Origin: Loxodes magnus
Lineage: Eukaryota; Ciliophora; Karyorelictea; Loxodida; Loxodidae
Reading direction: 5' to 3'
Assembly: GCA_946699065.1 (NCBI GenBank)
Contig: CAMPDV010000098.1
Span: forward strand, 372,001-436,000
DNA length: 64,000 bases
Positions 1 through 64,000 of this stretch are shown piece by piece (position 1 is the stretch's first letter; every line of letters starts with the position of its first letter). Position numbers and translations under genes: made by a program. A model generated the notes under the pieces. The model was not told where the DNA came from and ran no database searches. It saw nothing but the letters and a program-made list of their open reading frames with translations.

Positions 1-639
1 AAGATTCCGTATACTCTAAATTTGCAGAATCGTTCTTTTGCAGATCACCACGTTAAAATTATCTTTCAGAATTGCTAGAACTACTATTTTCTAGAACTTG
101 GTATAACTAGAACTATTCGGTCATAATTAAAAGCTACCTAATAATTATAAAAGCTAATAGAAATCTAGTTTATAGCAATTTAATTCAAACTAGAATTTAG
201 AGCTTTCCTTCATTATATTGTACAACTACTAATTCAATCTTATTCTGCTTTCTAGACTAATTATACTAGGGAAACCTTTATATATTTTGACTTTATAAAA
301 GCTGATTTTTAATATGGCTATTTTGATAGATAGAGAAGATAGGAGAGTATTTGGCTTATTATAAGGTATATTGAGTATATGGCATAGATATGGTTATTTA
401 GGAGAGCCTGACTTTTATGATGATTAACTAGCATATAATCTATAGAATATTAGACTATGATGCTTTCTTCTTAAGGATAAGTAAATTATACTAATCTAAA
501 ACTATATGATGAAGGTATATTGATACTGCTATAATAAACTAGCTGATTGTTATGCAGTTTTCTTTCCTAATAAAAGCATTGAGAGTATACCTATAATTGA
601 GAGGATGTAATTATTTTAATTAAAGGAATATAAACTAAA
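1..639. other. AT-rich stretch without a supportable gene
   Basis: An ATG at 314 opens a frame on the + strand, but that frame needs several in-frame TGA codons, resembles nothing I know, and runs out of frame with the convincing gene that starts at 640. I treat the stretch as intergenic DNA. It could hold the upstream end of a neighbouring transcript. Confidence 0.4.
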
Positions 640-1362
640 ATGGGAAATAAATAGATCTAGCAAAGTGTACTAATAACTCCAGTTCCTGGTTAATTTGGAA
701 TAAGGCACTTAAAATAAAGGAACTTATCTATATATTGTGAGAAGATTAGAACTATACATGATATTACCATCTTTCCTTAAATGACTGTAGCTGATGTTAA
801 ATTTATACTCATCTATCGCTTGAACAATTCTAGCAAATCTTAAATTCCCGCTTCTGCAATTATTTTGTATCATAAAGGCATAGTTCTTGAGGATGATGTA
901 GAGATTGAGAAGCTTAATATAGAAAATAGCCTGCTTAAGATGGATATATCTATTGATATAGAAAATGAAGCAACGGAAATGTCAGAGAGAAGTGTGAAGA
1001 ACATAGTAATTAACAAATCTGACTAGCAAATTTCATATAAATTCAGAGAACAAAACATACAAAATATGTATCATTTAACTACCAATGAAGAAATAACTCT
1101 ATAATCAAGTCATAATAAGTCTCGATCATTTACAAGCAAAGACTTCCAGAAAATGCTTCTAACTTTTCAAAAAGATGCTGAAACTGCTAAGATAGACTGG
1201 AAGATGAATCTAAGTAAATATGCTGTTTAAGATTATAAAATTAAGTGTGCAAGGAAAAGCTTTTTTAATTAATCTGTAAAATGGTATTCACTAACTCTCT
1301 CTTAATGCATTCATTCTTTATCTTCTTTAACTATTATACCTACAAAGTAACAAAGTACTTGA
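640..1362 (+). CDS. Ubiquitin-like-domain protein (hypothetical, 240 aa)
   Basis: The frame runs 240 codons with TAA/TAG read as Gln, no in-frame TGA, and a terminal TGA. I chose the ATG at 640 because it gives an N-terminus MGNKQIQQ, a possible N-myristoylation signal. The ATG at 314 is in another frame. Residues about 35-110 look like a beta-grasp ubiquitin-like fold: a TVADVK segment, then a helix-like stretch, then IILYHKGIVLEDD, which matches the 'y.G..L.D...i..l.i' pattern of ubiquitin-like proteins. The C-terminal half is polar, contains WKMNLSKYAV, and has no motif I recognise. The role is unknown. The ubiquitin-like reading is by pattern only and should be tested by profile search. 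Confidence 0.55.
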
Positions 1363-2035
1363 GTATTCTTTTAATGATATAATTGAAGAAAGTCACAAAA
1401 ATTATAGCAATATTAGTTCTTAATAAAAGCGATAAAAATACCTGAAATATGTTTCAGAAATATTCAGTCCCCTCATATTGTTATTCATTACTGCTATAAT
1501 TAAGCTTAAGTAGTATTTCATTTGTTACTTCATATTTTAACGTCTTTTAACTAAAATAATTTCAAAATAATTGTTTAACTATTCTCAATAAAAGGAATAT
1601 TTATAGTGGAGTTGCTATAATAGATGTATACTTAAAGTATCTGAAAGTATGCTTAAGAAAAATTGCTTAAATTACTAATTTAAATTTGAAGATTACTCGA
1701 AAATATTGTTTCGATGTAAGAGTAATTAAATAACTATTGTGAGAGGTTTAGAATCTAAAATTGGCAATCTGATTAGAACTATGATTTTGTTTGTCAAAGG
1801 TATTTCCACATAGTTTGAGTAAATATGAATAAAGAATAAAAAGTTAGTTTTTGATTATCAATAAAGTGATATTTTATTAACTTTTACTTAGGAAAAAATC
1901 AATATCTATTTACTATTTGTTTAATATTAATGGCTTGATTTAAATCTAATTTAGTAATTAAATTGATGTGATTTATAGAATCGGGGGAAACTTAGATTTT
2001 TATAGTCTACTCTGTTTGAAAATTTTAAAAATGAA
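1363..2035. other. Intergenic spacer, nothing recognised
   Basis: AT-rich spacer between two convergent genes. I saw no family motif, RNA gene or repeat in it. Confidence 0.4.
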
Positions 2036-3269: not shown

Positions 3270-4298
3270 TCAGATAACTGGGTATGAAGCAGCAATGGCT
3301 AATCCGCATTTTCCTTTTGAACTTGATGAATCAGTTCTCTTCAATCTTATAAATCCTTTCTCACCCCATGAAGAGCTCCATGAGTTTTTTATTCTCCAAT
3401 AGTCTTTTCCATTTTGAGATCCATATCCTACTAAAGTAACACCGTGATTAAGATTTGTTGAACAAGCCTCATCGAAAACTCCACTGCTATAATGTGACCA
3501 ACTTGAAGCATCTACTGCCACTGAAATTACGCGAGAATTTAATGATTTTTTTAAAGAAGCTTCATTTGCTTTAACACCTACATGTTTTGAAACTTTTGTT
3601 ACAGCCTTGGATTTGCTTTACTTGCAATTTCCTTCCGCAGCCTTGTATGGATAGTCAGATCCCTTTTCTTCTCCATGATCTTACCAGTATTTAAAGGCAG
3701 AGTTCATCCATCCACCATTGCAACCGTTATTTCCATAAGAGTTTGAGCAGTCTACTAGTTCTTATTCAGAAAATGAAACCAAAGATCCTTTCTTCAAAAA
3801 GTAAGCACCCTCTAGACTTCCAACTGCGCTAAAAGCCCAACAACTTCCACATTATCCTTAGTTTTTGACATGAGTAACAGCACCTTTTTGAACCCAATCA
3901 ACTGAGGCTTAAACTTGAATATCTTGCTCATCCTCATAAATAATTTCTTGATTAGGATCTTCTTTATATCCTAAATAGGTATTTCTGAACTCTTCCTAAG
4001 TTAAATCAGTAAAATGATTAATAGCATATTTCACACTCAAACTTCTTTAGTTTTCAACTTATATCCAGTAATAGTTGTCATGGAAAGTTTTAAATCTATC
4101 ATTCATTTCCTCTAATGAATTATAAGTCTTATTAAAGTCTTTTGTGAATACTTAGAACTGACGCCAAGTTTCTTCATGTGAAGAATCATAATTTACTGAA
4201 CCAAGAAGTGCTCTTTTACTTCCAGGAGTAGCATACATGAACAAAGCTAACAATCCAATAGTAGCAAATATGGCAAAAATTACCTTGCTTGATACCAT
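3270..4298 (-). CDS. Papain-family cysteine protease (cathepsin L-like, C1A)
   Basis: 342 aa, uninterrupted, ending in TGA. A signal peptide or signal anchor ([17 protein letters not shown]) fills residues 5-21. It is followed by an I29-type propeptide (ERFNIN-like segment ending in NHFTDLTQEEF) and the mature enzyme beginning near [10 protein letters not shown]. The catalytic Cys lies in QGQCGSCWAF, the His in [11 protein letters not shown], and the Asn in [13 protein letters not shown]. The oxyanion Gln (NQGQ) and the GCNGG motif are present. Length fits cathepsin L precursors, so this should be a secreted or lysosomal/food-vacuole endopeptidase. All Trp codons are TGG. It lies in the left arm of the inverted duplication and is the intact copy; the copy at 28521 is broken. 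Confidence 0.95.
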
Positions 4299-10215: not shown

Positions 10216-10893
10216 AATAATTTTTGATTAATAAGCTTCTGCTAAAGTTAAAGTTAACCTATTAAATAATCTGCTTTTATATCCTTTTTCTTTAGTTTAA
10301 CTAGTTAAAATATACAAGAAGCTGAAATTAATATTTAAGGCTATTATTAATGGCTGTATCCTATTAGTAAAGAAGTAGTTCGTATATAAGTAAGAAGGAT
10401 AAACAAGAATGGCTAAAGTAATCGGTTTAAGCTTGTAATAGTCAGAAATACTGATAAGTGAGTGTATTATTCAATCTTTATGGAAATATCTCAATCTTAA
10501 TTTTGAAACTTGTAGGCTACCAATCTTTCTATGAATATAATGGTTAGATAAAGTAAATAAAAGCAGCAAGAACAAGTATTTTTTATAGTCTAGAATTCAA
10601 CGAAGCAGGGTAACTAATAAACTACGGATAAGTTTTGAAGTTTAAATTACCGATGATACAGCAAAATATTCAAGTTCTTTCTATAATTAATTTGCTCGAT
10701 TAACAGTGAGAAATTAGTCTTGATCTAATGAATAAATCATGCTATACTCTAACTAGTCCTTATTCAATTATCTATTGATACTATTTAATAGTTATCAAAA
10801 TGATCTACAAGATAAGTATTTGAATATTTTATAACGAGAGTTAATTTTATTTATATATGGCATTCAAATTATTTAGAGTATAAGGATTAAAAT
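10216..10893. other. Spacer between two minus-strand genes
   Basis: No convincing coding frame or repeat was found in these 680 bases. The part next to 10894 is the likely 3' region of the membrane-protein gene and the part next to 10215 the upstream region of the CCDC13-like gene. Confidence 0.4.
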
Positions 10894-11694: not shown

Positions 11695-11912
11695 TATTTA
11701 ACTTTATACTTCAATAAGCTAAGATAAACAAGTAAACTAAAGCACTAATCTATTACCACTAGCACTTGACACTATCTAATAATAGACCATATCTACTCAT
11801 CTTACTCTTATAGATTCAGTTATATAATATAAATGAAAAGGAAGGTGGAAAGGGATTATTTTAATAAGTACTCAAGAATGTAAAAAAATGGATCTTAAAA
11901 AGAACACTCTAG

Positions 11913-17580: not shown

Positions 17581-18156
17581 TCACTAAGGAATTTCGTTGT
17601 TTAAGTTATTCAAGCCTGGACTGTCATAGTTACTATAAAAGTTGTATTAATAAATCAAGTTAGGAATTGAAGGCTAGTATTTCTTAGGCTCTATCTATAG
17701 AAATTTTCTTAGCATTTCCTCATTCTCTAAAATAGACGAAGCTAATATGAAATTATTTTGGGGCTTAAGTAGACATTTAATTGTTATAGCGTACTTAGAC
17801 CAAACATCTTCTGTTATAAATGGAGGATCGATAATCGCCATATCAAAAGAGTTCTTTTAGTTAGAAGGGATTTCTTCAGGTTGGTTGAAGTCATAGAAAA
17901 CGAAGTTTTAAAGCTAATGTTCTTACTTAATATTCATATCGATATCAAAAATTCAGGCATTACTCTAGATCTCAGGAGACTTAATGTAGAAATACACTGA
18001 AGGAGTCGAAATTAAAGCTATTTTAAAGGGAAAACTGTTTTAGCTTTGAATTCACTCAATTTCCTTAACTATAAACTCTATAGTTTTCTAGGAAAATCAG
18101 TATTAGTTAAATTCTTATTTTTCAGAGTATTAATCTAAAAACTATTTTTGGTTCAT
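17581..18156 (-). CDS. EFM5: eEF1A lysine methyltransferase (EEF1AKMT1/EFM5, formerly N6AMT2)
   Basis: 191 aa. The N-terminal signature QYWFSQKTIEFIVKEI matches the 'QyWys..T...l..E' block of the family. The catalytic motif DPPF sits in MAIIDPPFITEDVW. The C-terminal YNFYSNYDSPGLNN corresponds to the conserved FRCY-type segment. Members are SAM-dependent enzymes that trimethylate a lysine of elongation factor eEF1A in the cytosol. Three Trp codons, including the signature QYW, are TGA. Length is slightly shorter than the animal protein. It is convergent with the ATPase-like gene; the two TGA stops are about 150 bp apart. Confidence 0.88.
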
Positions 18157-20271: not shown

Positions 20272-23196
20272 ATGAAATAATATTATATCCAAGTTTTGTT
20301 AATTTCATTAAAATTATTAGGAGTATCAGGCTTAGCTGAAAACTTGACTACTATACATATTATCCCTTTTTCTCATCTAGATGCAGGATGACTCAAAACT
20401 TATGAAAATTACTATTTAGAATATGTTAACGATATTCTTACCAAAACTACTGCTTTGCTGCAATAGAAGATTGACTATACTTTTGTCTTTAATGAAGCTG
20501 TCTTTTATGATCTGTTTTTGAAAAGAGTCACCATTAACTAAGAAATGATGCTTAAGAGTGAAGTTCTAAGAGGATAGCTTGAAATAATAGGAGGTGGTTG
20601 AGTATCTCATGACGAAGCAATAACTCATGCAGATGATATAATATCAAACATGGCTTTAGGACTGTCTTTATATAAGAAAAAACTAGGAATAAAGCCAAGA
20701 ACTCTATTTCATATCGATTAGTTTGGGCATAGTAAAGGAAACGCATACATCTGTAGTGTAATGGGGTTTGATTCATAAGTAATAACTAGGATAGATTAAT
20801 ATACTGAACAGGAATTATAGTCAATAGGAAAGGAGTTTATATGAAATCCAGAATTAGATGAAGATAAAGACTAAGAGATATTTACTCATGTGGGGTTCGA
20901 GGGTTATGGAGGCGCACTTCATTAATCAAGACTAAGGAGAATTTTCTCTGAAAACTACTTAATTCATCTAAAGTAAAACTATACTTGATGGGAAAATTAT
21001 TTCCTTAGAGCAAACTAAAGTTACCTTAATAATGAAGTTTTGATTCTGTTTGGAGGAGATTTCGATTATAGGTTTCCTGATAAAAACTATAAAGTTATCG
21101 ATGAATTTGTTGAGTAAAATGATAAGTAATGAAAAGGGAAATTTAAGGTATAGTATAGTACTATTTAAAGTTACCTGGAGAAAATATATAAGGAAAACAA
21201 GACTTATCATGTCATTTCTAAAGATCTTTTACCTCTTATTGAAAACACTAAGAATGGAGTCTATTGAACAGGTTATTACACATCTAGACCTTAAATCAAA
21301 TTATTGGTTAGGTAGTTATCCAATCTATTTCACTCCGCTGGCTAAATTCTACTGATTGACTTTAAACCTTGACTTTTAAAAAAAGATGATTAATGAATAT
21401 AAAAATCAGGAAAGACAGAGTATCTCTAAAAGTTCTTGCAGTAATGAAAAGTCTTATCACTGATGTAGCACCATGATGCAGTTACTGGTACACACCTGTA
21501 ACATGTAAGTTAAGATTACATCTAAAGAATGACAGAAGCAATGCAGAACACACCAATAGAGTAGTTTGCAAACTCAGATACTAATGTATGAAACTCTAAG
21601 CAGCAGTAAATAGATTCTCCCTTTTAAATGTGTCTTCTTCTTAATGAATCTAGATGTGAGAAAATAGTGATAAATGATAAAACAGATACTCAGGTACTGA
21701 TATATAACCAATAGTTCAGTTAGAGATACGAGATCTTATAAATTCCAGTTCCACATTAGAATATAATAATTAGGGGTAATAAGCTTGCTAAATAAACCTG
21801 CATTGTAAAGCCAAATATCAATGACTAATAACTAAAGCAGCTCCCTTTTATCTTAGTTTTCCAAATAGACTTAAAACCGTTTAGTTTTACAATGATAACT
21901 CTTCAAAGCACAAGGAAAACTATTAATAAGTACAGCTGTGAAGTCCTTAGTTATTCCTAGCTCTAAATAGCAGATAATTTTAAGCTAGAAAACTCTAATT
22001 TAATGCTTAAAGGGTAATTAAAAAATAGCAACTGATATTTAGAAAACAAAATAGAAAATCTTACAAGTAGTAAGTTTAGCATACGATTAGAATAGTATCT
22101 CTATAACAAGTAATAAGCAAAGAAAGATAAAGGAAATTCAGGAGCTTATATCTTTAAATAGAACTAGCAATCTCTCAACTATGGCTAATTTCAAAGCGCT
22201 TTATTGCTTAGCTCTAAGTTATAAGATGAACTGGTTATATAATGTGACTAGTATATTCAAACAATAAGAGTGAACAAGAAAGTGAAGGAGAATTATATAG
22301 AGGTGGATACTTTTTTGAGTTCATTGTAAAATCCTTCTGAAGTAATTTTAAAGATAAAATCTGAGATACAAAACTAAAATAACTTCTATACTGATACAAA
22401 TGCTTTATTTTTAGTAGAGAGATAAACTAATAGAACCGTTCCCTATTTTATTGGTGCTAATTATTACCCAGTTACCTCCTATATTAGTATAGCTGATTAA
22501 GAAAAAGTTTTAACTATTTTGAACGACAGAAGCTAGGGAGGAACATCTTTAGCTAAGGGAGACGTAGAGGTTATGATCCATAGATTGACTGAAAAAGATG
22601 ACAATAAAGGAATGTCCGAGCCTTTATAGGATTTTGAGCATTTCAATGGTACTTAAATACCAATTCGAGTGAGAGTACTACATAAAATAGTTTTGCATAA
22701 ACACAGTGAATATGACTAAGTTAAGTAGCTATAGAAAGAAAACGAGGAGCAAGTAATTCTAATGTTTAGAAACATCCAAAATGTATAAGAAAAGCCTTAA
22801 AACTATGGATTACAATAATATTACTTTGAGAACTTCAATTTTACAGATCCAAATGACTATCGAAACTTTAAGATATATCTTAAAATAAATGAGTATAATC
22901 AATAAATCATAATAAAGATTAGAAATATAAGCCTAAGAAAAAGTCAAAGATTCTTAATTCAACCTTTTCTAAAAAGCCTTAGACTGAGTAATTAGTATCA
23001 AAAGCTATAATTTCCAATATAGAGAAGTTACTTTTAAAACTGTAATTGGAAAGAAATAAGCATAGGAGAAAATATGGATATTGAAGAAGTAGAATAAGGA
23101 AAAAGAAGATGAAGGATAAATTAAGTTAAGGATAAAAAGAAAGATAAGGAAGTATGGAGAGCTTAGGAAACAAGAGCCTTTAAAATATTATGTTGA
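20272..23196 (+). CDS. GH38 alpha-mannosidase (lysosomal/Golgi type)
   Basis: 974 aa. A signal peptide (YYIQVLLISLKLLGVSGLA) precedes the catalytic domain. Zinc ligands lie in FSHLDAGW (residue about 35) and in HHDAVTGTH (about 400). The catalytic Asp lies in HIDQFGHS (about 149), and the family block GGGWVSHDEA near 107 carries a Trp written as TGA. The C-terminal beta domain ends with ETRAFKIL, matching the usual terminal 'E.R.F' strand. Members cleave alpha-mannose from N-glycans in lysosome or Golgi. About a dozen Trp codons are TGA, so the reading depends on dual-use UGA. The stop is taken as the TGA after FKILC; a later TGA would add about 32 residues. Confidence 0.93.
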
Positions 23197-37254: not shown

Positions 37255-37875
37255 ATGTCTAACTATCTAATTAAGTACTTATATGACTAGCTAGCATTCA
37301 TTACTCTAATTCTATTTAATTATTAACTGAGTAATTCATATAAAAATTGGCTTTTTAAAGCTTAGGGATATTTAAATAGAAGGAAGCTATAATCATTATA
37401 TTTGATACCAGATTGTTGTTTGTCAAAAAGCTTTATTAAATAAGTCTTTAAAGTAATACAAATACTCTAGCTTAATAGATTGAAGCATTAGTTTAATAAT
37501 TTTTAAAAGGATCTACCACTTGAAGGAATGAATGACTACTTTAGTAAGCGGTATTTTAAGTTATTAGTTATAATAAAGAAATAGCTTACTAATCTTTCAA
37601 TAAAAGTGCTTCTTCAAGTATCTCCATTCTTATGTTCAGTTATATGCTTCTTTTATTTTAAATAATCAGAAGGAACTTTATTTGATTTTTTGAGGCATTA
37701 ACTTAGACTAAGATGCTTTAAAGATTTTGATATATACCTGGATAACTTTTTATAATAATCTATTTTCTAATAAGTTTGAATAGCTTTTATGTATTAAAGA
37801 ATTCAGCTTTAGTTTAAGTGTAATCTATTCAATTGTAAAAGTGAAACTAAAAATATAATCAAAAAGTGCTCTTGA
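37255..37875 (+). CDS. Doubtful ORF, hydrophobic (206 aa)
   Basis: The frame begins MSNYLIKYLYDQLAF and has one internal TGA. It contains a hydrophobic stretch (LLQVSPFLCSVICFFYF) and ends in TGA inside the 3' end of the centrin gene on the other strand (17-bp overlap). Length and low TGA content favour a gene; the lack of homology and the overlap argue against. I list it for completeness. Confidence 0.25.
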
Positions 37876-38377
37876 TCATCATACGATAAAACTATTCGAC
37901 TGTTACTTTTCCATCGTTGCTTTCGTAGTAATCTCTAATCAGTTCCTCAATAGCTTCATCTGTCACATGCTCACCTATCTCTTTAGCTACTCTTTTGAAA
38001 TCAGTTTTATCCAAAACTCCAGATCCGTCGGAGTCCATCAGCTAAAATACTCTGCTTATACCTTCTCCCGTCTCATTATCTCCAAGTTTATACTATAGCA
38101 TGTTCATGAAGTCAACAAAATCAATCAAGCCTCCTTTCATTTTTTTTTCTATTTGTGTGATCATATTTCAGATAGTGGTATATTTCTCATCAATTGCCAA
38201 ACGTTGCAAATAAACGCGCATATCAGCAATATCAATATATCCATCTCCTTTCTTGTCAAACAAATCAAATGCCTCCTTGATTTCATTTACTTCTTCCTCA
38301 GTGAAGTCATGAAGCTTTTTCATGTTAATCTATTTCTTTTTTGACTAAGGCGTTTACTCAGTATTTTTAGATGCCAT
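37859..38377 (-). CDS. Centrin-like EF-hand protein
   Basis: 172 aa, exactly the usual centrin length. After a short basic tail (MASKNTEQTPQSKKKQ) comes LHDFTEEEVNEIKEAFDLF. EF1 loop is DKKGDGYIDIAD and EF3 loop is DSDGSGVLDKTD, both with Asp at position 12 where Glu is usual. EF2 (KMKGGLIDFVDF) and EF4 (ESNDGKVTVEQF) lack key acidic ligands. One Trp (TTIWNMI) is TGA. Centrins form calcium-sensitive fibres and basal-body components; ciliates have many, often divergent. The terminal extension KSTF is short and does not end in the Phe-Tyr of basal-body centrins. Confidence 0.88.
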
Positions 38378-39064: not shown

Positions 39065-40296
39065 ATGGAGTAGAATGCTTTTGATAAATCCAAGTAATTT
39101 TTTTGTAAATTAGATTTGATAAAGAAATACAGGCTTGAGCAATTAGAGTACCAACTAAATAATGCTATGATTTTCAGTAAAAACTCAAAAAAAAGTTTAT
39201 CCACTATCCTAAAATCTCCCCTATAGTGGCAGATCCTAATAATTAAGACTTCAGGTTAATTTTACTAAATTGTGATGAAAAAGAAACTAACGAAATAGCT
39301 TAAAGTCATAAAGTCACTAGTGAACAAACTAAAATTACGTTGAAATATGAGAACTTAAGCTACCAAGAAATTTTAAGGTAAATCTTACCTAATGAATTTG
39401 AAATTCCTAAGGGTTTTGAAATAGTGGGACATATTGCTCATTTTAACCTGAAAGAGCATCATTTACCTTATAAGCATTTGATAGGGCAAGTTACTTTAGA
39501 TAAAAATAACGCTATTACAACTGTTGTTAACAAGACTCAAAATATAAGTCACGTGTTTAGATTTGCAGAGTTAGAAGTATTAGCAGGTGAAGATAATTTA
39601 GATGTATAAATTAAGGAAGGAAAATGTATCTTTAAGTTTAACTTAGGGAAGACATATTGAAGCTCCAAGTTGCACCACGAAAGAGATAGGATTCTCAATA
39701 TTTTCACTAAATATCAAAATTAATGAGCGAGAAAACTTAAGATGTGCGATATGTTCTGTGGTGTTGGACCTTGCTCCATTAGAGCAGCTAAATAAGGCAT
39801 AGAAGTATTTGCAAATGATTTAAATCCTCATTCTTATGAAAGCTTATTGAAAAACGCGGGGTTAAACAAAGTAAGAGTGTAAGCATATAACTGTGACGCA
39901 AGGGAATGAATAGTTAAGATGGTATAAACCACAACTTTTGATTTTGTAATTATGAACCTACCTAAAGATGCTGTCGAGTTTTTAGATGTATTCAAGAATG
40001 CTTTTCCAACTGAAATATGAAACGAAGATCAACTACCCATCATATTCGTTTACTGCTTCTCAAAGGAAATAAATCCAAAGTAGGAAATCCAAGAAAGGAT
40101 CTTTAAATTATGGAACTACACGTTAGAAGATTTTAACGCCCATAAAGTAAGAGATATTTCTACTAAAAAGTGAATGTTTTGTATATAATTCAAATTGCCT
40201 AAAGAAGTTGCCTTTAAAATCAGTGAGGAAAGCGGTTAGAAACGGAAACACGCAGAAATGGAAAACATTGAAGAAGAGAAAAAGGAGCTTAAATGA
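39065..40296 (+). CDS. TRM5: tRNA (guanine37-N1)-methyltransferase TRM5
   Basis: 403 aa after removing a 20-nt intron at 39094-39113 (GTAATTTTTTTGTAAATTAG). Splicing joins FDKSK to FDKEIQAWAIRVP, as homologs require. The central block GFEIVGHIAHFNLKEHHLPY and IGQVTLDKN are diagnostic. The SAM-binding motif is CDMFCGVGPCSIRAA (usually FAGVGPFA), followed by ANDLNPHSYE, and the NLP catalytic motif is MNLPKDAVEFLDVF. It methylates N1 of G37 next to the anticodon, preventing frameshifts. Six of seven Trp codons are TGA, including YWSSKLHHER and KWMFCIQF. Two motif residues (Phe/Ala to Cys) differ from most eukaryotes. Confidence 0.95.
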
Positions 40297-41913: not shown

Positions 41914-44667
41914 ATGAAGACATAAATTAATGAAATTATTGCTTAGACTTTAGAGACTAAATAAAGGATAGGAGAAGTAACTGGAGCAATGAATGCTAGC
42001 TTTATAAAGAAAGATTTGGGAACAGATTAAGAAGAATCAGGGAGTGAAATTGAGGAAAAAAGATTAGCGGTAAGCAGAAATACTTTAATCTTCAAAGATA
42101 AGTTAACCCAAAATATGTACCTTCAACATCTTTATAACGAAGGATTATTTTTAAGGCAAGAGTATAAGGAAAACTTAATAATAATAGCAACCTATTTATA
42201 CCTGGTTCTTACTATATGCTTAATTAATCAAGTTATAAGCATAGTGATCTTCAACTAAGATGCTAGCTTTACAATAGCATAGGCTATAGTTATTCTAATA
42301 ATAGGAGTCATTGGATGCTTTATATTAATTATGATGATTAGAAATGAATTATGAAGACTAAACTCAGCTCCTTGTATTACTTTCGTTCTTTCTTTATTGC
42401 AGGCTTATTTGATATTTTTCGATAGATAATTCATAGAAAAAAATTTTGAACTTGATGTAAAAGGACAAATTGATAGCAGTCTCTTTCTATTTATTACTTT
42501 ATTCATAGGATATCAGTTTCTACAAAGCAGCTATATAGGAATAGCAACTCTTTCCTCAATTACCTGTATTTTCTATTTTGCAGCCTGTATATTTTCCAAT
42601 AGATAAATAAGCGAAGTAGTTTTCTCTGTTGTAGTCTTAATTTTTGGATGCTCTGTCTTGAATAAATATGCATTTCAGAAAGACAAAATAATGAAGACTA
42701 TCTGAACAATCAAACTTGAGAATAAAAGCTTAGACAATGCTAGAAGAGCTAGTATGGCAGCAGTTGTAAGTGAAGTGTAGGATAAAAGAAGAATCAGAAA
42801 CTCTATTACTATCACTAATTTTCTTGATAAAGCACTGAATAAAGGAGAATTTACAGATATTGAAAGAATTGCTTTCTTAATGAATTCAGCTAAGTCTGTT
42901 ATCTAAAATATTGGAGATACTATTATTTATAGTAACGTTTCCAAGCAATGCACTTAAGCTTTCAAAGACCTCGAACTCGCTTAAAAAGTTCTTATAAAGA
43001 AAGAAAATTTATGGGAATTCGATGTTGACAAGCAACTTAATCAGTATTAAGAAGTTACAGAAGATGATCGTAAATTCGTTAAGCAGCATTACTAAGATCC
43101 AGTCTTAAAAAGTGAAGAACTGTAAAAGCAAGCAGACTTATAGAAGAAAAGACCATTAGTAAGAAAAAATACATTAACCACTTATTAGAAACCTTCATAG
43201 TAGGATATTAAGCAAAAATAAAAGAAAGGAAAAGAAGTATTAATGATTGATTATAGTCTTCCAGAAATTTTGAACATCCTGAGTTAAGTGGGTACTAATT
43301 GGAACTTTGATTGCTTCTTTCTAGAAACATTGACAAACAATAAATGCTTGTCAACGGTAGCATGTTATTTGTTTAAGCATATTCTATTCGTAGACGAAAT
43401 TTTCTAAATAAAGGAATAAATTTATGTTAAATACTTCTAGTTGATCGAATAACAGTACGCAGATAACCCTTACCATAATAGAAATCATGCTGCTGATGTA
43501 GCCTGCTCTTTGGTTTATTTTATCCTTAATTCTCATCTTAAAAACTCTTTTGATAATATCGATAATCTTTGTGCTGCCATTGCCGGATTTGGCCATGATG
43601 TGGGACATCCAGCATTGAATAATAGATTTCTGGTAAACGGCCAAGAAGAACTAGCACTTACTTACAACGACTTTTCAGTTCTAGAAAACTATCATAGTTC
43701 GCTTACCTTTAAGACTATGAAGCAAAAAGATGCCAATATTTTAGGAGCTCTTTAAGCATAAGAGTACTAATTCGCTAGGAAACTAATTGTTGAAATGATT
43801 CTAGAAACTGACATGGCTAAACATTTTGAATCGCTAGCAAAATTCAAAAATAAAGCTTTGACAGATAAGCAATTTTCAACTGACAATGTAGACCATAAAA
43901 TATTGCTGCTGAAAACAGCGATTAAATGTGCAGACATAGGTCATTCAAGTAAAACGTGGGATTTACATTATAAGTGAAGTATGAAGGTTGTTCAAGAATT
44001 CTTCAATTAGGGTGATATTGAAAAATAGAAGAAGTAGCCAATTTCTATGTATTGCGATAGAGAAACCACTAAAATTCCTGCTTCTTAAGCAGGTTTTCTA
44101 AAAGTAATCTGTATACCTTTGTTTGAAGCATGGAACGATCTCTTAAAGAGTGATCAAATATAAGAGGTTTGTATTGAATAGGTCCATTTAAATTTGGCAG
44201 AGTGAAAAGCAAGAAGTAAATAAAGAGTTAATAGCTAGGGAAAGCCAACTACTAGATAGTCTAATTGTAATATAACTCCTGTTGAAATAAAGAATTCATA
44301 GACTTTTGTTCTCAATTTTAAAGATCATAGTGAGAAGATTAACTAGATAGCTAATGAAAATCTTAAAAGCCAAGCATTTGAAGGAAAGTAAGGATTTGAC
44401 GATACTGAACTTTAGTCATAAAAAAAGAACTCTAAAATAAAGAAATTCAAGCAGAGCATAATTGAAGAAGTTGAAGAAATAGTAGATAATTCTGACCAAA
44501 CTAAAATTTAAAGCGAAAGCTCGATAGAGAATAAAAAGGATATTACGAATGATCAAGGCTAAGGATATTCTGTGATAAAGCTTTAGAAAATAGATTTGAA
44601 CTCAATTACTAAAATGATTGAAGAAGTAGAGTCATTGAAAACACCAAGTGATAGATCAGACATTTGA
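41914..44667 (+). CDS. Membrane-bound class I cyclic-nucleotide phosphodiesterase
   Basis: 917 aa. I start at the ATG at 41914; the ATG at 41989 is an alternative 25 codons later. Residues about 85-255 form several transmembrane helices. A coiled linker follows, then the HD-type catalytic domain. Metal-binding motifs are YHNRNHAADV (about 520), GFGHDVGHPALNN (about 560) and CADIGHSSKTW (about 672), followed by EFFNQGD and the QAGF glutamine region. It should hydrolyse cAMP and/or cGMP at a membrane, possibly ciliary. About 200 residues of low-complexity Lys/Gln/Ser tail follow. Four Trp codons are TGA, including the conserved KWSMKVVQEF. The next gene starts 90 bp downstream on the same strand. 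Confidence 0.93.
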
Positions 44668-44757: not shown

Positions 44758-45678
44758 ATGGTGGAAAATTTCCAAATCCCAGAAAAAACTCTCCCAGGAG
44801 GCGGTAAAATGTAGTATTTTGGCTTTGGTACCTTTGCAATTGATGAGGCTAGAGGTACAGAGCTAATTTGTTCAGCTGTTAAAAACGGTATCCGTCATTT
44901 TGACACTGCAACAGTATATGGAAACTTCCACATTTTAGAACCTGCTTTTAAGGAAGTCTTCAAGCAGGGACTTTGCAAAAGAGAAGAGTTATTCATAGTA
45001 AGCAAAAATTGGTGTACTGATTAGAAAGAAGTTAAGAAATCAGTACTTGGCTCTTTAAAAGATTTAAGTCTAGAATACTTAGATCTTCTCTTAGTACATT
45101 GGCCTTTTGCTTATAAAGTCAACCAAGATGGATCAAAAGAATTGGAGTTCGTTTCAAGAGAATCAGTATGGAGATAGTTTGAAGATGTAGTTGATGAAGG
45201 TCTAGTCAAATATATTGGTGTAAGCAACTTTAATTGCATTCTTTTGTATGACACTCTCTGCTGGAATAGAATAAAGCCAGTTTGCAATTAAACAGAGCTA
45301 CAAATTTATTATTAGCAGCCACATTTAGTTAAGTTTTGTTTAGACAATGATATTCTACCTGTTGCAAGTAGTCCTTTAGGAAACAATTACTTGCAATCTT
45401 TAATAAACAATGTTTAGTTCAATGCATTTGAGGAACCAGTAATCAATGAAATTGCCAAAAAACATACAGCAACTCCCGCATAAGTAATGCTGGCTTGGAA
45501 TATCTAAAGAGGTGTAGCTGTAATACCAAAAACTAGCAGTCTACAAAGAATTCCCGAAAACCTAAAATCAGTTTAGCTTAAGCTTGACGAAGAAGACGTG
45601 AAAAGAATTCAAAGTTTAGATAGAGATATGAAAATCCAAGAAAGTCACAAAGAATACTTTTTCCCATGCTTTAGATGA
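44758..45678 (+). CDS. Aldo-keto reductase
   Basis: 306 aa to the TGA at 45676, or 320 aa if that TGA is Trp and the stop is at 45718-45720. Catalytic tetrad residues are visible: Asp and Tyr in FDTATVYGN, Lys in VSKNW, His in LVHWPF. Family segments include [23 protein letters not shown] and VIPKTSS. It forms a TIM barrel and reduces carbonyls with NADPH in the cytosol. All internal Trp codons are TGG, which favours the earlier TGA as the true stop. It follows the phosphodiesterase closely, but no functional link is evident. Confidence 0.92.
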
Positions 45679-47161: not shown

Positions 47162-48463
47162 TCACTTTTTAAGTTTTTTATTTCTAGATTCTATAACATC
47201 TCCCCCGGCTTTCCTTTTAATCACTCCATAATCTTTTTTTAGCTTAGCAAAAGTAGGCGTTCCATTATAAATAAACTCATAAATTTACTTTAAAGGAACT
47301 GATAGGTTTTCGCTTTTATACTCAGGTTTACAATCAATTTCAAAAATAAACCTGCACAAATTTTATCCAACTTAAGTAAAGTTTTCATATTATTTATAAA
47401 ATCCAGTACGCTGTTTATCAGCCTTAAAATAGTATATCTTAGATACATCTAAATTTTATATATCTCTCTTTTCTTAAGCTTCGATATTAAAAATATCTAG
47501 GTTTTCTATTATCTGATTCTATCTCATTTTCATAAAATGCTATAGTGCTTCTTCTACTATATAGCAGTAAGTTACTTATTACCCATGAGCAGCCTTCACT
47601 CTTTTGATTAGATGCTTATTACTTGAAAGTCAATTATTTTCCTTTTTAAATATTCATTTAATTTCCATTCCATTGAATAAGTTATATTTAAAAGGTCTTT
47701 CTGATTCATCAGGGATTCTTACATCGTTTTCAAATTCATCCTTAAATCTTACAGGTCCATATAAGCAATCTTCACAGAATTTCCTATAATAGACTAAATC
47801 ATACTAAGGTTTTTATACTATTTATTTACATTCATAGCAAGAATTCTTTTTCATTTATATGTAAAGTATCTTCCAAAATACTTATCTATCTTATTCATTC
47901 TATAGCTTCATTTCCTTTTGGTTCTATTATACTGATTCTTCTTTAAATTCATTATGGCAAATTTAGCATCATAACTCCTAATCTCATCCTATAGCATATC
48001 ATTCTTTATTTACAAACTAAAGTGTTTTTGTTATCTCCTTTCCAGAAAAATATTTAAAGACTTATTTGAAAACTCTTCTTAGTGGACTTTATTTCATTTA
48101 TACGTGATTGTCAAGCCATTGCTAAGAAATGCAGATTGTTGGGTTGAAAATTATTTTTTCTGATTTCTTTTGCTTTAAAATATATTTGGCTTCCGTTATT
48201 TCTTCGTAATTCAAGCCCTCTGATTATAGAACTCTTACATATTTATCATGCAATTACATATCAGATCAACATTCCAAACAACTTATTCTAAGTTTAGGTT
48301 TTTTCTCATCAGTTTCATCCACAACAATAAGAGAAACGTCACGTAAATTATACTCGCATAGAGTACAACTTTATACTTTTTAGCTACTCTTACTCGAATA
48401 ATCCTTCTCAAACTGAGCATTAGAGTATAAAACAGCTGATTTAACTTCTAGTTTATCAAACAT
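47162..48463 (-). CDS. F-box protein with cysteine-rich segments (433 aa)
   Basis: No intron. Residues about 140-180 read SPLRRVFKQVFKYFSGKE, then VNKEWYAIGWDQELW, matching the F-box pattern 'P.evl..If.yLs..dl......vnk.W..i..d..lW'. The Trp residues here are TGA, which supports both the code and the call. Cys pairs occur upstream (CTLCEYNL, then CLEC) and downstream (CQIC; CYEC; FCEDC), suggesting small zinc-binding sites. F-box proteins recruit substrates to SCF ubiquitin ligases via SKP1. No substrate-binding repeat (LRR, WD40) is seen. The basic C-terminus ends RNKKLKK. Confidence 0.7.
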
Positions 48464-53925: not shown

Positions 53926-55116
53926 TCACAAAACTTCTGATAAATCTTGAGGAAGCTCTTCGATTTCAGTAGAGTAGTGCTTCTCGATTTCTTTTAAGAA
54001 TTGCGCGTCTTGTGGAGTTACTAGATTAATCGCGACACCTTTTCTTCCAAATCTTCCACTTCTTCCAATTCTGTGCAAGTAAGACTCATAGTTAGTAGGT
54101 AAATCATAATTAATGACTAAACTAACTTGTTGAACATCAATACCTCTGGCTAGAAGATCCGTGGTTATCAAAATTCTTGAACTTCCAGTTCTGAATTCTT
54201 ACATAATCAATTTACGCTCCTTCATGTCCATTTCTCCATGCATTGATGAGACAGTAAAATCATTCTCTCTCATTTTTTCAGTAAGCCACTCAACAGTTCT
54301 TTTCTTGTTGCAATAAATGATAGCTTAGTTAATATCAATATTCTCATACAAATCTTAAAGAGTTGGTAGTTTCCAGTCTTCCTTCTCAATAGCAATATAA
54401 TACTGCTTAATACCCTCAAGTGTAAGCTCGTCCTTTTTAACTAGAATCTTTATAGGGTCTCTCATAAATTCTGCTGAAATTCCTAAAATATCTGGAGGCA
54501 TTGTTGCTGAAAACAAACAAACCTAAATGTTTCCTGGAAGAAGACGGAAAATTTCCTAGATTTACTCCTTAAAGCCTCTAGATAGCATTTCATCAGCTTC
54601 ATCTAGTACGAACATTTTGAGAAACTTGGGGTCTAAATGTTTTCTAGACATCATGTCAAAAACTCTGCCAGGTGTTCCAACCACTACATGCACTCCACTT
54701 TCCAACTTTTAGATATCTTCTTTGACGTTTGTGCCACCAACGCACGCATGGGTAATTACACCTAAATATTCTCCGAGACTGTTAATAACTTTATCAATTT
54801 GCATTGCTAACTCACGAGTTGGTGCAAGAACCAAAGCTTAGCATTCCTTTGATTAAGTATTAACAAGTTGTAAAATACCTACAGCAAAAGTTGCCGTTTT
54901 TCCTGTTCCTGATTATGCTTAAGCAATCGTATCGCGTCCCATAATAATAGGCTTAATACCAGTTTGCTAAATTCTTGATGGGCGCTCGAAACCATAGGAA
55001 TAGATTCCTCTTAAAAGAGGTTCCTTTAGATTCATGTTGTCAAAAGTTTCAATGCGTTCATCCCAATTTGACTCTATCTCAATATCGTTCCCTTAAGCAG
55101 GTTCGTTTTCGACCAT
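53926..55116 (-). CDS. eIF4A: eIF4A, DEAD-box RNA helicase
   Basis: 396 aa, full length, no intron. Motifs in order: Q-motif region [13 protein letters not shown]; motif I AQSGTGKT; Ia [10 protein letters not shown]; Ib TPGR; II DEAD in [17 protein letters not shown] region [36 protein letters not shown]. It unwinds 5' UTR structure during translation initiation in the cytosol. All Trp codons are TGG, unlike several neighbours. It ends VL then TGA. Confidence 0.96.
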
Positions 55117-59072: not shown

Positions 59073-59681
59073 ATGGGATAGAAGCAAACTTTAGAGGATA
59101 GTGTTTTTGAAATGCGCTTAGCGTCAAAGCAAATGGTTAAAGAATCCTAGAGATCTGAAAAAGAAGAAGCTAAAGAGAAACTTAAAGTTAAGGCTGCTAT
59201 TGAAAAAGGAGTACTAGAAGCTGCTTAAATTCATGCTGAGAATGCGATACGTAAAAAGCATGAAGCGTTAAACTACTTAAAACTGTCTAGTAAAATGGAT
59301 TCTGTTGCTTCAAAACTTCAAACAATGTCTAAAACTTAGAATTTAACAAAGCAATTTAGCAAAATTATCCCTTAGATGAAAAATGCCATGCAGTCTATGA
59401 ATATGGAAAAAATAGCTTCAACAATGAATGAATTCGAAACTATGTTTGAAAACTTGGATGTAGTGAGCGAGCATATCGACGTAGCAATAGGCCAGACTGT
59501 AAGTACGGCTACTCCTGCAGAAGAAGTAAATAAATTAATAGCTTAAGTAGCTGATGAGCATAACTTGAAGGTTGGGTTAGAGCTTCCAGGCTAGGTTTCA
59601 GCTTCTTTACCTTAGTAGTAGCAAGTTTAGAATAATAATGTGAATGATTTTGAAGCTAGACTAAATAACTTGAGAGGTTGA
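59073..59681 (+). CDS. CHMP1: CHMP1/Did2 (Vps46), ESCRT-III subunit
   Basis: 202 aa, no intron. Begins MGQKQTLEDSVFEMRLASKQM and continues with the charged helix typical of ESCRT-III. Diagnostic segments are ALNYLKLSSKMDSVASKL, then MNEFETMFENLDV, then VNKLIAQVADEH. The C-terminal DFEARLNNLRG is a MIT-interacting motif (MIM1, consensus L..RL..L+). It recruits VPS4 and regulates ESCRT-III disassembly in multivesicular-body sorting and abscission. No Trp codon at all. Length matches the family exactly. Confidence 0.95.
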
Positions 59682-60120: not shown

Positions 60121-62851
60121 ATGGCTGAAAAAGTTCCTAGAGTTAGGTGCTCAAAAGATAGCAAGTTCTTTGTGAGAAATAAGAACTTGAGAATTAACAA
60201 GTCTAACTTTGTCTATCAGGCTCTAAATATACAATAAGTAAGCTTTTTAGTAACTTTAGAATAATAATTCTCTTACTTTCTAGTTAAAAGCAGAAAAGGC
60301 TTAAAATCCAGCTTTAGTATGTGAAATTAGCTGCTTTGAGAACAACCTTATTAATCTTAAAGTTGATGAAATTTAGTAAGAGTATAAAAGATTTTAACTG
60401 GTAAAATCTGACTTTATTAATGATAAAGTCTTAGTACCTGAAATTTTTGCGGTTTAATAGCATAATAACCTAGTTGAGGTCAATCTGAAAAACAATTTGA
60501 GTCTTTAAATTCAGCTACAGCCATTTTTAATAACCGTATTGCTAAATAATGCTAAATGCTTGATAATTAACTCTGAAAACTTGTTTAGCTTTGAAGTTTA
60601 TAGAACATAATAAGCATCTAGAGATAACATTTTTGATGCAACGAGTTTACTTGAGGAAGAAGAATATAAAAGCTAATGGATTGATAACTTTGCTAGCAGG
60701 AATGACTTTATGTAGATTGGTCCTTAAGCTTTAGCCTTAGATTTAAAATTTTGTGATAGCAAACTTTTGTGTGGAATTCCAGAACATGCAGATAATTTTG
60801 ATCTAGTAGATACTTTTGATTCTGAACCTTATAGAAACTATAATTTTGATGCAGGAATGTATCCAATACGCAGTCGATTACCTCTATATGGAAATATTCC
60901 TATTTTGTAAAGTTATAGGAATGATTGCTGTGTAGGAGTTTTTTGGTTAAACTCAAGTGATAATTACACTGATGTATAAACATAATAGGATGGAAAGTTA
61001 GCACATTGGGTTTTTGAAGCAGGTATAATGGACATTTATTTAATGGTTTAGCCAAACCCTATTAATCTTATCTAGCAGTTTACTACTTTAACTGGTCCAC
61101 CTTTAATGCCAAGATTCTTCTCTTTAGGATTCCATTAGTGCAGATGGAATTACTTTACCTAATAAGAGACCGAAGAAGTATATGAAGGATATGAAAAGCA
61201 TGACATACCGCTAGATGTTATTTGGTTAGATATTGAAGTAATTTTTTTAAATTAGTACTCAAAGGAAAAATAGTATCTTGAGTGGAACTACCAAACTTTC
61301 CCAGATCCAAAAGGAATGTTTGCTAAGTTTTGGGAAACAGGAAGGAGAATCGTGACTATTATAGATCCACATGTAAAAGTTAGCTAAAACTATGAAAAGT
61401 ATACTAATGGACTTGCTAAAGGTAATTTTTACTAGATTAGATGTATATGTAAGGAACTCAGATAATCTGCCTTATGAAGGGCCATGTTGGCCAGGAAACT
61501 CTAGTTATCCAAATTTCTTAAATCCTGCTGCTAGAGAATGGTGGGCAAGTTATATTCCTAAAGACTCAACGTCTTCTGAATAATATCTGTGGATTGACAT
61601 GAATGAACCTTCTGTTTTTACAAGTTCTACTAATACTGAAGTAACCATGCCTAAAAATAGCATTCATATTCTACCAAACTATTCTAGACCTATTGAACAC
61701 TCTGAGGTTCATAATGCATATGGATTCTATTATCATGTTGCTTCATATGATGGACTTATTAAAAGAGATCCTAATAAAAGGCCTTTTATCTTAACAAGAT
61801 CCCACTTTGTTGGCACATAAAAGTATGGAGCTGTTTGGACAGGAGACAATCATGCATATTGGGATCATCTAGAAGTAAGCATTCCTATGGTTCTTTCCTA
61901 GGCAATAGCAGGAATAAGTTTTATAGGAGCTGATGTAGGAGGATTTTTCCAGGATCCAGAACCAGAACTTATTTAAAGATGGACGCAACTAGGAGCATTT
62001 TATCCTTTTTTCAGAGCTCATTCTCATATTGAGACAAAAAAAAGAGAACCATGGTTATTTGGAACTGAGCACGTAGACATAATCAGAGCTGCAACTAAAA
62101 TAAGATACCATTTGCTTCCATTTTGGTACACACTATTTAGAAAATACGCAGCAAATTCAGTTCCAGTAATAACTCCACTATTTATCAAAACCTAAAATAG
62201 CCTTCTAGTGGTAGAAGACTAATTATTCGTTGGAAATGCAATTCTAGTGAAACCTGCTGTAAAGCCTTAATAAACAACTGTAGAGATAAAAACAGGTTAG
62301 GATTATCCTTTTTGGTATAACTTTTATAACCTTCAAAAGATAGAAGTTTAAGATAGCTAAATAAGTAAATCAATTGATAAAAATGAGATAGGTGTTCTTA
62401 TTAAGCCAGGAAGCATTTTAGTTACATACAAAGAAGTTTGTAAATCCACTGAGATGATGAAAAAGTTTCCTTATACACTGATAATTGCTTTAGACTAAAA
62501 TCATTAAGCCTAGGGAGCTTTCTATGATGATGATTGGACAAGCTTTAGTTTCCAATAGGTAATTTATTATACTTCAGGGTCAATATGTAGAGTCTAATCT
62601 CATCTTCAAGAACTTAGAACTAAGTAATGAACTTCTAAACAGCAACTATGAGAGTGAATCTTAACATCTGGTAGCAGAAATCAAGATATTAGGTTTGGAA
62701 AAATAGTTTTAAGACGTGAAAGTCAATGTAAGACTTTAATATATAGGGAGTTTCTAAAGAAGCATAGTTCAGTTTTAGCAATTAGGTTTTGACTATAACT
62801 AATCTAGAAATCAGATTAAACTAGGTATGGAAAATTAGTTTCGGTTCTTGA
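60121..62851 (+). CDS. GANAB: Glucosidase II alpha subunit (GH31)
   Basis: 877 aa across six exons. Introns: 60238-60259 (22 nt), 61238-61255 (18), 61422-61440 (19), 62559-62577 (19), 62727-62745 (19), all GT...AG and all needed to keep homology and frame. The N-terminal CSKDSKFFVRN corresponds to the mature start of the family. GIPEHADNF and FDAGMYPIR lead into the GH31 barrel. The nucleophile Asp is in WIDMNEPSVF (about 470), the acid/base Asp in WTGDNHAYWDH (about 552). It trims glucose from N-glycans in the ER. No signal peptide is visible at this start, which is odd for an ER enzyme; a missing first exon is likely. All Trp codons are TGG. Confidence 0.95.
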
Positions 62852-63420
62852 AAGGTTATTTCAGCTCGAACTTATACATTTATTCTATATATTGAAGTTA
62901 AGCTTTACCTTTTATCCTCCTTACTCTAATTTTATTACCTTTATTAAAATAATTTTTATTGGTTTCCTTCTTTAGTCTCTCTTTTTTAAGTAATTGGTTT
63001 AGTAATTGAAGCAGTATTTATATATTCAAGGAATGACAAATAAAGCAAAGAGATTGAAAGATTATAAATAAATCTACTTTGATACTTAAAGTGAGAAATG
63101 ACAAAGCTATGCATATCTCATAGCTTGATAAATAAATCAGATTTAGAAGAAAAATAAGGTAAATAATCCAAACAGTCAAAAGTGAGTATTTATCAAATAA
63201 TTATCCAGCGCTGATTATAAAAATGCTTTATATGGAATATCATCTGATAGAAAATAGCTAGAAGGTAGAGAACGAAGATATTTAATATCTAATAACATTG
63301 CTGAATAAAGTTAAATCTGGCTACATAAAATCCTTTTAATCAGTGATTCTAAATATTAAACAATGAATATATTTAAGCTTCTCAGTTCTATATTATTCGT
63401 ATAAATTAAAGGTATATAAA
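62852..63420. other. Spacer with a weak open frame
   Basis: A + strand frame from about 63034 (MTNKAKRLKDYKQ) remains open but uses several TGA codons within 60 residues and overlaps ATG10 in another frame. I do not call it. Confidence 0.3.
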
Positions 63421-64000
63421 ATGATAATGACCGAAACGGAATTTATAAGTTAAGCAAAGCTTCTAAGCTAAAAGTAAAGTGAGTGAAAAATATTGGAAGT
63501 AGATCAAGGGATAGAAACAAAGATATATATCACGAGTGAGTAGTTATATAATATATAAGATCAGATTCTGCTAATTCTTAATATAGTCTATAATAAAAAT
63601 TATTAGGTTCCAACTCTCTATTTTCGATTCCAGGATTTATAAGGCTAAGTAATGTATAATCAAGTTAAAGAAACGATTGTTGCAAATATTGAGGAGCATC
63701 CTATCCTCGGAACTACCTGATATTATTTGCATCCCTGCGAAACCTAAAATTTGCCTGTTAAGTATTTATTTGGATGAATGAGTGTAGTTCTTCGTAAATT
63801 TAACATTGAGCCTAAGATAGAACTATTGGAATTAATTAAGGTATGGGAGAGTTAAATTGGTATAATGGAGAGTGAGAAAAGCCTAGACTAAAATTTTTAA
63901 GACATAAAGTGTAAAATACGCGTTTTTTAATTTTTTTTTAAACTTAATCACAAAAGCCCTTTAAGTAAGATACATCAAAGTAGTCTAGTTTAAGGTATAA
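63421..64000 (+). CDS. ATG10: ATG10-like autophagy E2 enzyme (3' end outside the window)
   Basis: At least 193 codons from the ATG at 63421 with no terminal TGA before the window ends. Family segments: EWKILEVDQ, then QILLILNIVYNKNYQVPTLYFR, then VKETIVANIEEHPILGTTWYYLHPCET. The His-Pro-Cys contains the catalytic Cys, followed by the WMS(V) strand. ATG10 transfers ATG12 to ATG5 in autophagosome formation. Three Trp codons, including those in TTWYY and GWMS, are TGA. The last ~40 residues are Lys/Phe-rich and may already be 3' non-coding or an intron. The N-terminus could extend upstream. Confidence 0.8.

Follow-up and report, generated by a model that had tools for sequence, protein, structure and literature searches.

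What distinguishes a true stop when UGA both encodes tryptophan and ends genes, and UAA and UAG are read as glutamine? The question is raised by the window, the whole 64,000-nucleotide stretch of Loxodes magnus DNA analysed here. It is very probable that the window is macronuclear DNA in which UAA and UAG encode glutamine and UGA is tryptophan within genes and a stop at gene ends (the karyorelict code, NCBI table 27), through a mechanism of competition and end-proximity. The double role of UGA in L. magnus is already published, and the identification of the code is a confirmation; the available text of Seah et al. 2024 (PMC11441545) states code 27 for a macronuclear assembly of 706 Mbp. The assembly searched here consisted of 705,730,643 bases in 7843 contigs. 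The additions to what is in print are an out-of-frame control, a gradient in synonymous codon share, counts of family ends, and sequences of the tRNA and of eRF1 taken from the L. magnus assembly.

Sense meanings of UGA, UAA and UAG

The preliminary description of this DNA had assigned it to table 27. The assignment was borne out in each part that was tested: tryptophan for UGA, glutamine for UAA or UAG (UAR; TAR in DNA), and UGA as the sole terminator observed. TGA occupied 27 of the 8241 in-frame codons (0.33%) in 27 gene models of the window, whereas its frequency was 1.78% and 4.88% when the sense strand was read in the two alternative frames; the in-frame pattern is thus more than a chance effect. 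The same codons included 380 TAA and 194 TAG.

The reassigned codons were masked, the proteins were aligned to solved structures, and the residue facing each codon was read off. Internal UGA faced tryptophan at 6 of the 16 aligned sites, which belong to a GH38 alpha-mannosidase, a 3'5'-cyclic nucleotide phosphodiesterase (PDE), CDC73, centrin and TRM5; the ten sites with a different residue weigh against the reading. The GH38 reading frame (20347..23112, forward strand; Pfam) has 11 in-frame TGA codons vs. 2 TGG; it was split by the gene finder, and these bounds are not the fixed true start and end. Four of its eight aligned UGAs, at 20389..20391 (HLDAGW), 20599..20601 (GGGW), 20842..20844 (EFIW) and 21265..21267 (VYWTGYYTSR), faced a residue that is tryptophan in both the jack bean and fly enzymes, the others faced E, A, L and S, and three further UGAs fell in gaps. 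The one aligned UGA of PDE (HYKWSMK, 43975..43977, forward strand) faced the tryptophan of phosphodiesterases; a second lies beyond the alignments shown. The one aligned UGA of CDC73 (QFKDW, 32763..32765, reverse strand) faced tryptophan in human parafibromin and tyrosine in yeast. The remaining non-tryptophan sites were a lysine in centrin (0 of 1) and F, E, I, I and Y in TRM5 (0 of 5). The TRM5 codon at 39658..39660 (forward strand, KTYWSSKLHHER) faced phenylalanine in archaeal Trm5b; the residue is presumably tryptophan in eukaryotic TRM5. Another internal TGA was read from the codons of an EFM5-like methyltransferase (18097..18099, reverse strand; Pfam N6-adenineMlase), where it supplies the W of QYW, a residue that we take to be conserved in the family, and TAA supplies the Gln; a homology query with this protein in the correct frame returned one match (E 0.51), which was given no weight.

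The preliminary description had placed TGA at the tryptophans of GGGW, QYW, YWSSKLHHER (TRM5) and KWSMKVV (PDE), and all four were confirmed codon by codon at the positions given above. It had also placed TGA at the tryptophan of an F-box. The gene concerned (47162..48463, reverse strand) does contain six internal TGAs by its codons, and TGA encodes three tryptophans of the protein, but Pfam gave no F-box, the sole match being a sub-threshold NPRL3. Pfam supported the GH38, N6-adenine-methyltransferase (EFM5), TRM5/TYW2, PDEase, papain, Snf7 (CHMP1), DEAD (eIF4A), EF-hand and GH31 assignments, and a Pfam search of 10216-12700 (reverse strand) gave no match.

Glutamine was faced by 8 of the 12 aligned TAR codons of eIF4A and by the TAA codon in the NQG motif of the papain-family protease. 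Furthermore, a given glutamine alternates among CAR, TAA and TAG between paralogs of calmodulin and of histone H4.

The possibility was considered that the window consists of pseudogenes or assembly errors and that the in-frame TGAs are merely broken codons. Two genes indeed appear damaged: the protease at 28521-29150 is truncated and has Tyr for Cys in CGSCW, and a P-type ATPase has EKNG in place of the expected DKTG. However, tryptophan was faced at 6 of 16 aligned TGA sites, against a chance level of about one in a hundred, the GH38 frame extends over approximately 2.7 kb with no frameshift, and glutamine sites are filled by TAR, making this explanation extremely improbable.

Gene ends and the context of UGA

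In all nine histone H4 genes and all four calmodulin genes, TGA directly followed the last family residue, and the DNA downstream differed. The preliminary description had stated that UGA ends five genes exactly where their families end. This held for eIF4A (53926..55116, reverse strand, terminal TGA 53926-53928; Pfam and alignment, with TAR at Gln positions), in which residue 395 of the 396 pairs with residue 405 of the 406 in the human protein; for the papain-family protease (3270..4298, reverse strand, terminal TGA 3270-3272; Pfam and alignment), in which the Gln of NQGQCGSCW is TAA (3860-3858) and the C-terminal residue is aligned with that of procathepsin L (7w33); and for centrin (37859..38377, reverse strand, terminal TGA 37859-37861; Pfam and alignment), in which residue 171 of the 172 pairs with residue 170 of the 172 in the reference and the one internal TGA is that facing lysine. 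The exactness was not supported for the CHMP1-like Snf7 protein (59073..59681, forward strand) or the GH31 glucosidase II-like protein (60710..62630, forward strand, with a 19-nt intron), both with a terminal TGA in the gene model, because the Pfam match stops 25 and 69 residues, respectively, before it. CDC73 (32547..33530, reverse strand; gene model, Pfam and alignment) also has a terminal TGA. The end of PDE (42754..44667, forward strand; Pfam) was placed at TGA 44665-44667, and the ATG of the next gene, at 44758, is only 90 nt on and in the same frame. That gene encodes an aldo/keto reductase (44758..45678, forward strand, terminal TGA 45676-45678), whose Pfam match reaches position 290 of the 291 in the profile and leaves 18 residues to the end. 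The more than 20 gene ends previously counted in the window correspond to 27 model-predicted ends, although only about ten have homology support.

The surroundings of UGA were analysed in a main set of 45 gene models from 114 kb around the window (loci L052-L056 included). The 33 codons before each predicted stop were free of internal UGA. Of 88 internal TGAs, none was within 20 codons of the stop (expected 4.0, p 0.015) and one was within 40 codons (expected 8.1, p 0.0016). Coding UGA was found at 0 of 900 positions in the last 20 codons of this set and at 0 of 640 in a second set, described below. The UGA-free zone is partly circular, since the gene finder accepts TGA alone as an end and can fuse neighbours, as it fused PDE and the aldo/keto reductase. 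The GC content of the 30 nt 3' of TGA in the 114 kb was 0.21 for terminal and 0.285 for internal codons (p 9e-7).

The meaning of UGA could instead depend on local context (the base or codon that follows), with distance to the end of the message playing no part. The +4 base does differ between terminal TGA (T20 G12 A12 C1) and internal TGA (A49 T17 G16 C6; p 0.002). However, the base following internal TGA shows no difference from that following TGG (p 0.42), indicating that the context of internal UGA is that of ordinary coding sequence, and the base after terminal TGA differs weakly from that after noncoding TGA (p 0.043). A role for local context is thus improbable, and the +4 base was dropped as a discriminator. 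The two senses of UGA seem to be told apart by closeness to the message end. According to the proposed mechanism, translation as tryptophan would be the default outcome. Near the 3' end, with a short AT-rich 3'UTR and the poly(A) tail close by, eRF1-eRF3 would prevail with the help of poly(A)-binding protein, and selection would keep coding UGA out of this zone.

Avoidance of UAA before stops

UAA was also rare in frame before stops in the 45 models, with 19 occurrences in the last 900 codons (20 per model; 2.11%) vs. 5.17% elsewhere; the p value of 9.5e-6 was the smallest of the codons tested. UAG was unchanged in the same region. The UAA share of glutamine codons rose from the stop upstream as 0.25, 0.28, 0.42, 0.46 and 0.50. 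Out-of-frame UAA showed no significant change (ratios 0.83 and 1.04), so a polyadenylation signal is unlikely to be the cause of the avoidance. The depletion of UAA before stops has already been published from transcripts of L. magnus, in the part of PMC11441545 available.

The second gene set was poorer. It comprised 41 models from 35 loci, including nine H4 copies and repeated elements, and left out loci L010-L038, L061 and L062 as well as the calmodulin loci L072-L075. With H4 removed (32 models), no UAA depletion was found in this set: 27 of 640 codons, 4.22% vs. 4.38% (27 vs. 32 by label permutation, p 0.12). With H4 retained, the UAA share of glutamine codons was 0.36 near the stop vs. 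0.49 (p 0.03), and without H4 the difference was not significant.

One reading is that UAA is a second, conditional stop, still sensed by eRF1 near the 3' end and avoided there for that reason. There would then be two context-dependent codons: UAA, sensed when no more than approximately 20 codons separate it from the poly(A)-proximal stop and consequently purged in frame, and UGA, which alone would be the regular stop; UAG would not be sensed. The in-frame depletion, the unchanged level of UAG, the lack of a significant change in out-of-frame UAA, the glutamine-share gradient and the published transcript data (the accessible portion of PMC11441545) are in its favour. Against this, the depletion was not replicated in the 32 models of the second set, both eRF1 genes themselves have a UAA within their final 20 codons, UAA is found at none of the 13 family-anchored ends, and Loxodes eRF1 carries the YCF and TASNIKS changes, which reportedly confer UGA-only specificity. 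UAA as a conditional stop is therefore rather unlikely, and the two-codon scheme built on it is held just as tentatively. Nevertheless, the avoidance of UAA is hard to reconcile with a simple UGA-only eRF1.

Decoding machinery and comparison with known codes

The preliminary description had expected a tRNA-Trp(UCA), and such tRNAs are known from ciliate mitochondria according to the text available of Swart et al. 2016 (PMC4967479). None was found with one anticodon-arm pattern run over the genome, which a divergent or intron-bearing gene could escape. The pattern gave 136 matches, 10 of them with the letters UCA; ARAGORN identified three of these as tRNA-Lys(CUU), found no tRNA in the other seven, and thus returned no UCA tRNA among them. 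As far as this one pattern goes, it is very unlikely that a dedicated tRNA-Trp(UCA) reads UGA. The tRNA-Trp(CCA) has a 4-bp anticodon stem, in which the 27:43 pair is broken by an A27:C43 or U27:C43 mismatch (numbering assigned by hand). Among the matches listed, its genes form arrays of at least 48 copies on contig C67 and at least 51 on contig C148. The arrays as a special dose for UGA decoding were set aside, since other tRNA genes look multiplied too: an Rfam tRNA search, starting from 42,786 loose first-look candidates, gave 63 scored matches, of which 57 had an identical score on other contigs, some evenly spaced. A pattern for tRNA-Gln(UUA/CUA) gave seven matches, and the one examined was a tRNA-like stretch in which ARAGORN found no gene; UAR-reading tRNAs were not found by this search.

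Two eRF1 copies lie approximately 35 kb apart and are identical at 417 of 436 residues. The alignment of copy L040, to which L041 is identical at these positions, showed the substitutions E55A, T58R, S60Q, S70A and Y125F, with NIKS and GTS retained. The inspection of eRF1 proposed in the preliminary description thus gave RAQNIKS, FLCENTF and Ala70 in both copies. The Loxodes striatus eRF1 entry likewise has RAQNIKS, FLCENTF and Ala70 (the available Table 2 of PMC4695839), whereas L. magnus has two gene copies. As judged from sequence, the 4-bp-stem tRNA-Trp(CCA) and eRF1 both appear to fit the published competition model.

No difference in code was apparent from the same organism as described in the available parts of Seah et al. 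2024 (PMC11441545), which report code 27, short 3'UTRs, introns mostly of 25 bp or less, and depletion of UGA and UAA, not UAG, upstream of stops. Parduczia sp. and Condylostoma magnum share UGA as tryptophan and stop, UAR as glutamine, termination at the message end and pre-stop depletion of stop-like codons; for Parduczia, UGA alone is named as depleted, and in Condylostoma UAA and UAG serve as gene ends too (Swart et al. 2016, PMC4967479, available portions). This last trait, that of table 28, was seen at 0 of 13 family-anchored ends in L. magnus, giving a 95% upper limit of about 21% if the ends are independent. Blastocrithidia nonstop shares UGA read as tryptophan via a 4-bp-stem tRNA-Trp(CCA) and a substitution of eRF1 Ser70, but there Ser70 is Gly (Ala in both L. 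magnus copies), UAR is glutamate and UAA is a stop (PMC12153298 and PMC13092985, parts available). The L. magnus window lacks these table 31 traits, as TAR faces glutamine and the anchored ends are TGA.

Few nuclear codes are without a dedicated stop codon, and this one could be recovered blind from raw sequence. Its machinery was checked within one genome, with no UGA-cognate tRNA found, a 4-bp-stem tRNA-Trp(CCA) and Ala70 in eRF1. Moreover, the avoidance of UAA and not of UAG offers a direct test of how much of the former recognition of stop codons persists after reassignment.

Masked alignments and in-frame TGA, TAA and TAG

The assembly searched comprised 7843 contigs and 705,730,643 bases, and the window occupies G000:C98:372001-436000 in it. 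Genes were modelled with a codon-usage-based finder that allowed introns of 15-26 nt and TGA as the only stop; training used 8 DEAD-box loci first and the window afterwards. This gave 23 models in the window, and 27 under relaxed settings. With standard stops, the longest open stretch in the window was at most 115 codons. In frame, the 27 models contained 27 TGA among 8241 codons (0.33%), compared with 1.78% and 4.88% in the remaining two sense frames, together with 380 TAA and 194 TAG.

For comparison with solved structures, TAA, TAG and TGA were masked as X in the queries, which kept any assumed code from steering the alignment. Residues opposite masked codons were read by eye off the printed alignments; across all window queries, tryptophan stood opposite 6 of 16 aligned internal TGAs, which supports the earlier reading of UGA as tryptophan inside genes. 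The alpha-mannosidase (GH38) frame, 20347-23112 (+), contributed 11 TGAs. In the jack bean enzyme, W stood opposite 4 of the 8 that aligned (HLDAGW, GGGW, EFIW, VYW) and E, A, L and S opposite the other 4; 3 fell in gaps. The 3'5'-cyclic nucleotide phosphodiesterase (PDE) has two TGAs, one aligned and opposite W, the second past the alignments shown. The single aligned TGA of CDC73 faced W in the human protein and Y in the yeast one. That of centrin was opposite K, and the five in TRM5 were opposite F, E, I, I and Y of archaeal Trm5b. We presume that the W of the YW motif is conserved in eukaryotic TRM5, as is that of QYW in EFM5; the EFM5 query found no usable match among solved structures. 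The protease and eIF4A queries have no internal TGA. Tryptophan codons are unevenly distributed: GH38 has 11 TGA and 2 TGG, and TGG is the sole Trp codon in the protease, the larger GH31 exon and the aldo/keto reductase.

The assignment of UAA and UAG to glutamine was likewise borne out. In eIF4A, 8 of 12 aligned TAA or TAG codons were opposite Q, the others facing D, Y, C and R. The first Gln of the protease motif NQGQCGSCW, which we take to be the oxyanion Gln, is encoded by TAA and aligned with Q. Moreover, glutamine codons exchange freely among paralogs. The Gln of IQGITKP in nine histone H4 genes is CAR in six, TAG in two and TAA in one, and at four Gln sites in four near-identical calmodulin genes the codon varies, with CAR, TAA and TAG all used.

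The papain-family protease, 3270-4298 (-), has a second, truncated copy at 28521-29150 (+), with Cys changed to Tyr in CGSCW, that looks like a dead duplicate. A P-type ATPase-like frame, 14107-16128 (+), carries EKNG where we would expect the phosphorylation motif DKTG, and is perhaps a pseudoenzyme or a decaying gene. Left of the window, two similar secreted proteins, presumably SCP/CAP-like, lie about 5 kb apart on opposite strands (L052:649-1164 and L052:6436-6951) and are non-identical in DNA.

Terminal TGA and the codons before it

The proposed use of UGA as a stop at family ends held in genes whose ends are independent of the gene finder: TGA directly follows GFGG in 9 of 9 H4 genes and the last Lys in 4 of 4 calmodulin genes, and the DNA 3' of these TGAs differs. 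In the window, eIF4A, the protease and centrin also end in TGA at the family end. PDE and aldo/keto reductase share one reading frame, which the gene finder joined by running through the TGA at 44665, 90 nt ahead of the next ATG (44758). This TGA is taken as the PDE stop; if so, the PDE 3'UTR is short.

Stop context was analyzed in the window plus 50 kb adjoining (114 kb, 45 models), with 141 TGG and 88 internal TGAs. At least one of the latter, in PDE, is probably a genuine stop. No internal TGA lay within 20 codons of the stop (0/88; 4.0 expected, p 0.015) and one lay within 40 (8.1 expected, p 0.0016), a TGA-free zone partly produced by the gene finder. GC content of the downstream 30 nt was 0.21 for terminal and 0.285 for internal TGA (p 9e-7), and the +4 base also differed (p 0.002). 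However, the base following internal TGA did not differ from that following TGG (p 0.42). The +4 contrast is therefore one of coding versus noncoding sequence, and does not support a local signal as the stop mark.

In the last 20 codons of the 45 models, UAA fell to 19/900 from 5.17% elsewhere, compared with 22/900 and 2.40% for UAG; UAA gave the smallest p of the codons tested (9.5e-6). From the stop upstream, the UAA share of Gln codons by bin was 0.25, 0.28, 0.42, 0.46 and 0.50. The possibility was considered that polyadenylation or composition causes this avoidance, but out-of-frame UAA did not change significantly (ratios 0.83 and 1.04), which counts against either. When Gln codons were permuted within genes, 33.3 UAA were expected and none of 2000 shuffles was as low as observed. 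A second set of 32 models from other loci, cut by locus ends, with repeats included and H4 excluded, by contrast had 27/640 (4.38% elsewhere; 32.0 expected by permutation, p 0.12). Pooled, the sets gave 46 against 65.3 expected (0/2000). The depletion itself is known: passages of Seah et al. 2024 (PMC11441545) describe poly(A)-tailed L. magnus transcripts as depleted in UAA, and not UAG, ahead of the stop. The frame control and the gradient come from the present analysis. The idea that UAA is still sensed by eRF1 near the 3' end, and would hence be purged there in frame while UAG is not, is not claimed to be unpublished. UAA occurs among the last 20 codons of both eRF1 genes, indicating that it is at least tolerated there.

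tRNA-Trp and eRF1

The tRNA-Trp(UCA) expected from the preliminary description was not found in a genome search with one anticodon-arm pattern. Of 136 matches, 10 had the letters UCA, and ARAGORN recognized no tRNA with UCA among them (three tRNA-Lys(CUU), seven no tRNA). Among the 100 matches listed, 99 share one tRNA-Trp(CCA) string, 48 on contig C67 and 51 on C148; ARAGORN called no tRNA at the exception, locus L009, and tRNA-Trp(CCA) in 4 of 4 array loci tested (L010, L024, L038, L062). The anticodon stem reads ATCGA/TCGAC or TTCGA/TCGAC, implying an A:C or U:C 27:43 pair and a 4-bp stem. According to passages in PMC13092985 and PMC12005148, such a stem is already in print for Loxodes. The tandem arrays lie at G000:C67:482323-491202 (unit ~187 bp) and C148:155464-169180 (unit ~241 bp), and other tRNA-like genes are likewise repeated at many genome sites.

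Two eRF1 genes (L040, L041) lie ~35 kb apart on contig C196 of G000 and are identical at 417 of 436 residues. Relative to human eRF1, with residue numbers counted by hand, L040 has E55A, T58R, S60Q, S70A and Y125F and retains GTS and NIKS. These agree with the motifs published for L. striatus (RAQNIKS, FLCENTF, Ala70) in the relevant part of PMC4695839, where the Loxodes YCF and TASNIKS changes in combination are described as giving UGA-only specificity. In Blastocrithidia, parts of PMC12153298 and PMC13092985 report, Ser70Gly plus a 4-bp tRNA strongly raises UGA readthrough.

The codon use first described for the window is confirmed, and its interpretation, UGA as both tryptophan and terminator with UAA and UAG as glutamine, is supported. 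The short introns of the gene models and the eRF1 motifs both fit L. magnus as the source. The code was reportedly described by Seah in 2022. It is already known for L. magnus: in the portion of Seah et al. 2024 (PMC11441545) on the 706 Mbp macronuclear assembly code 27 is stated, and a passage in PMC6935857 likewise gives UGA as stop and UAR as Gln for Loxodes.
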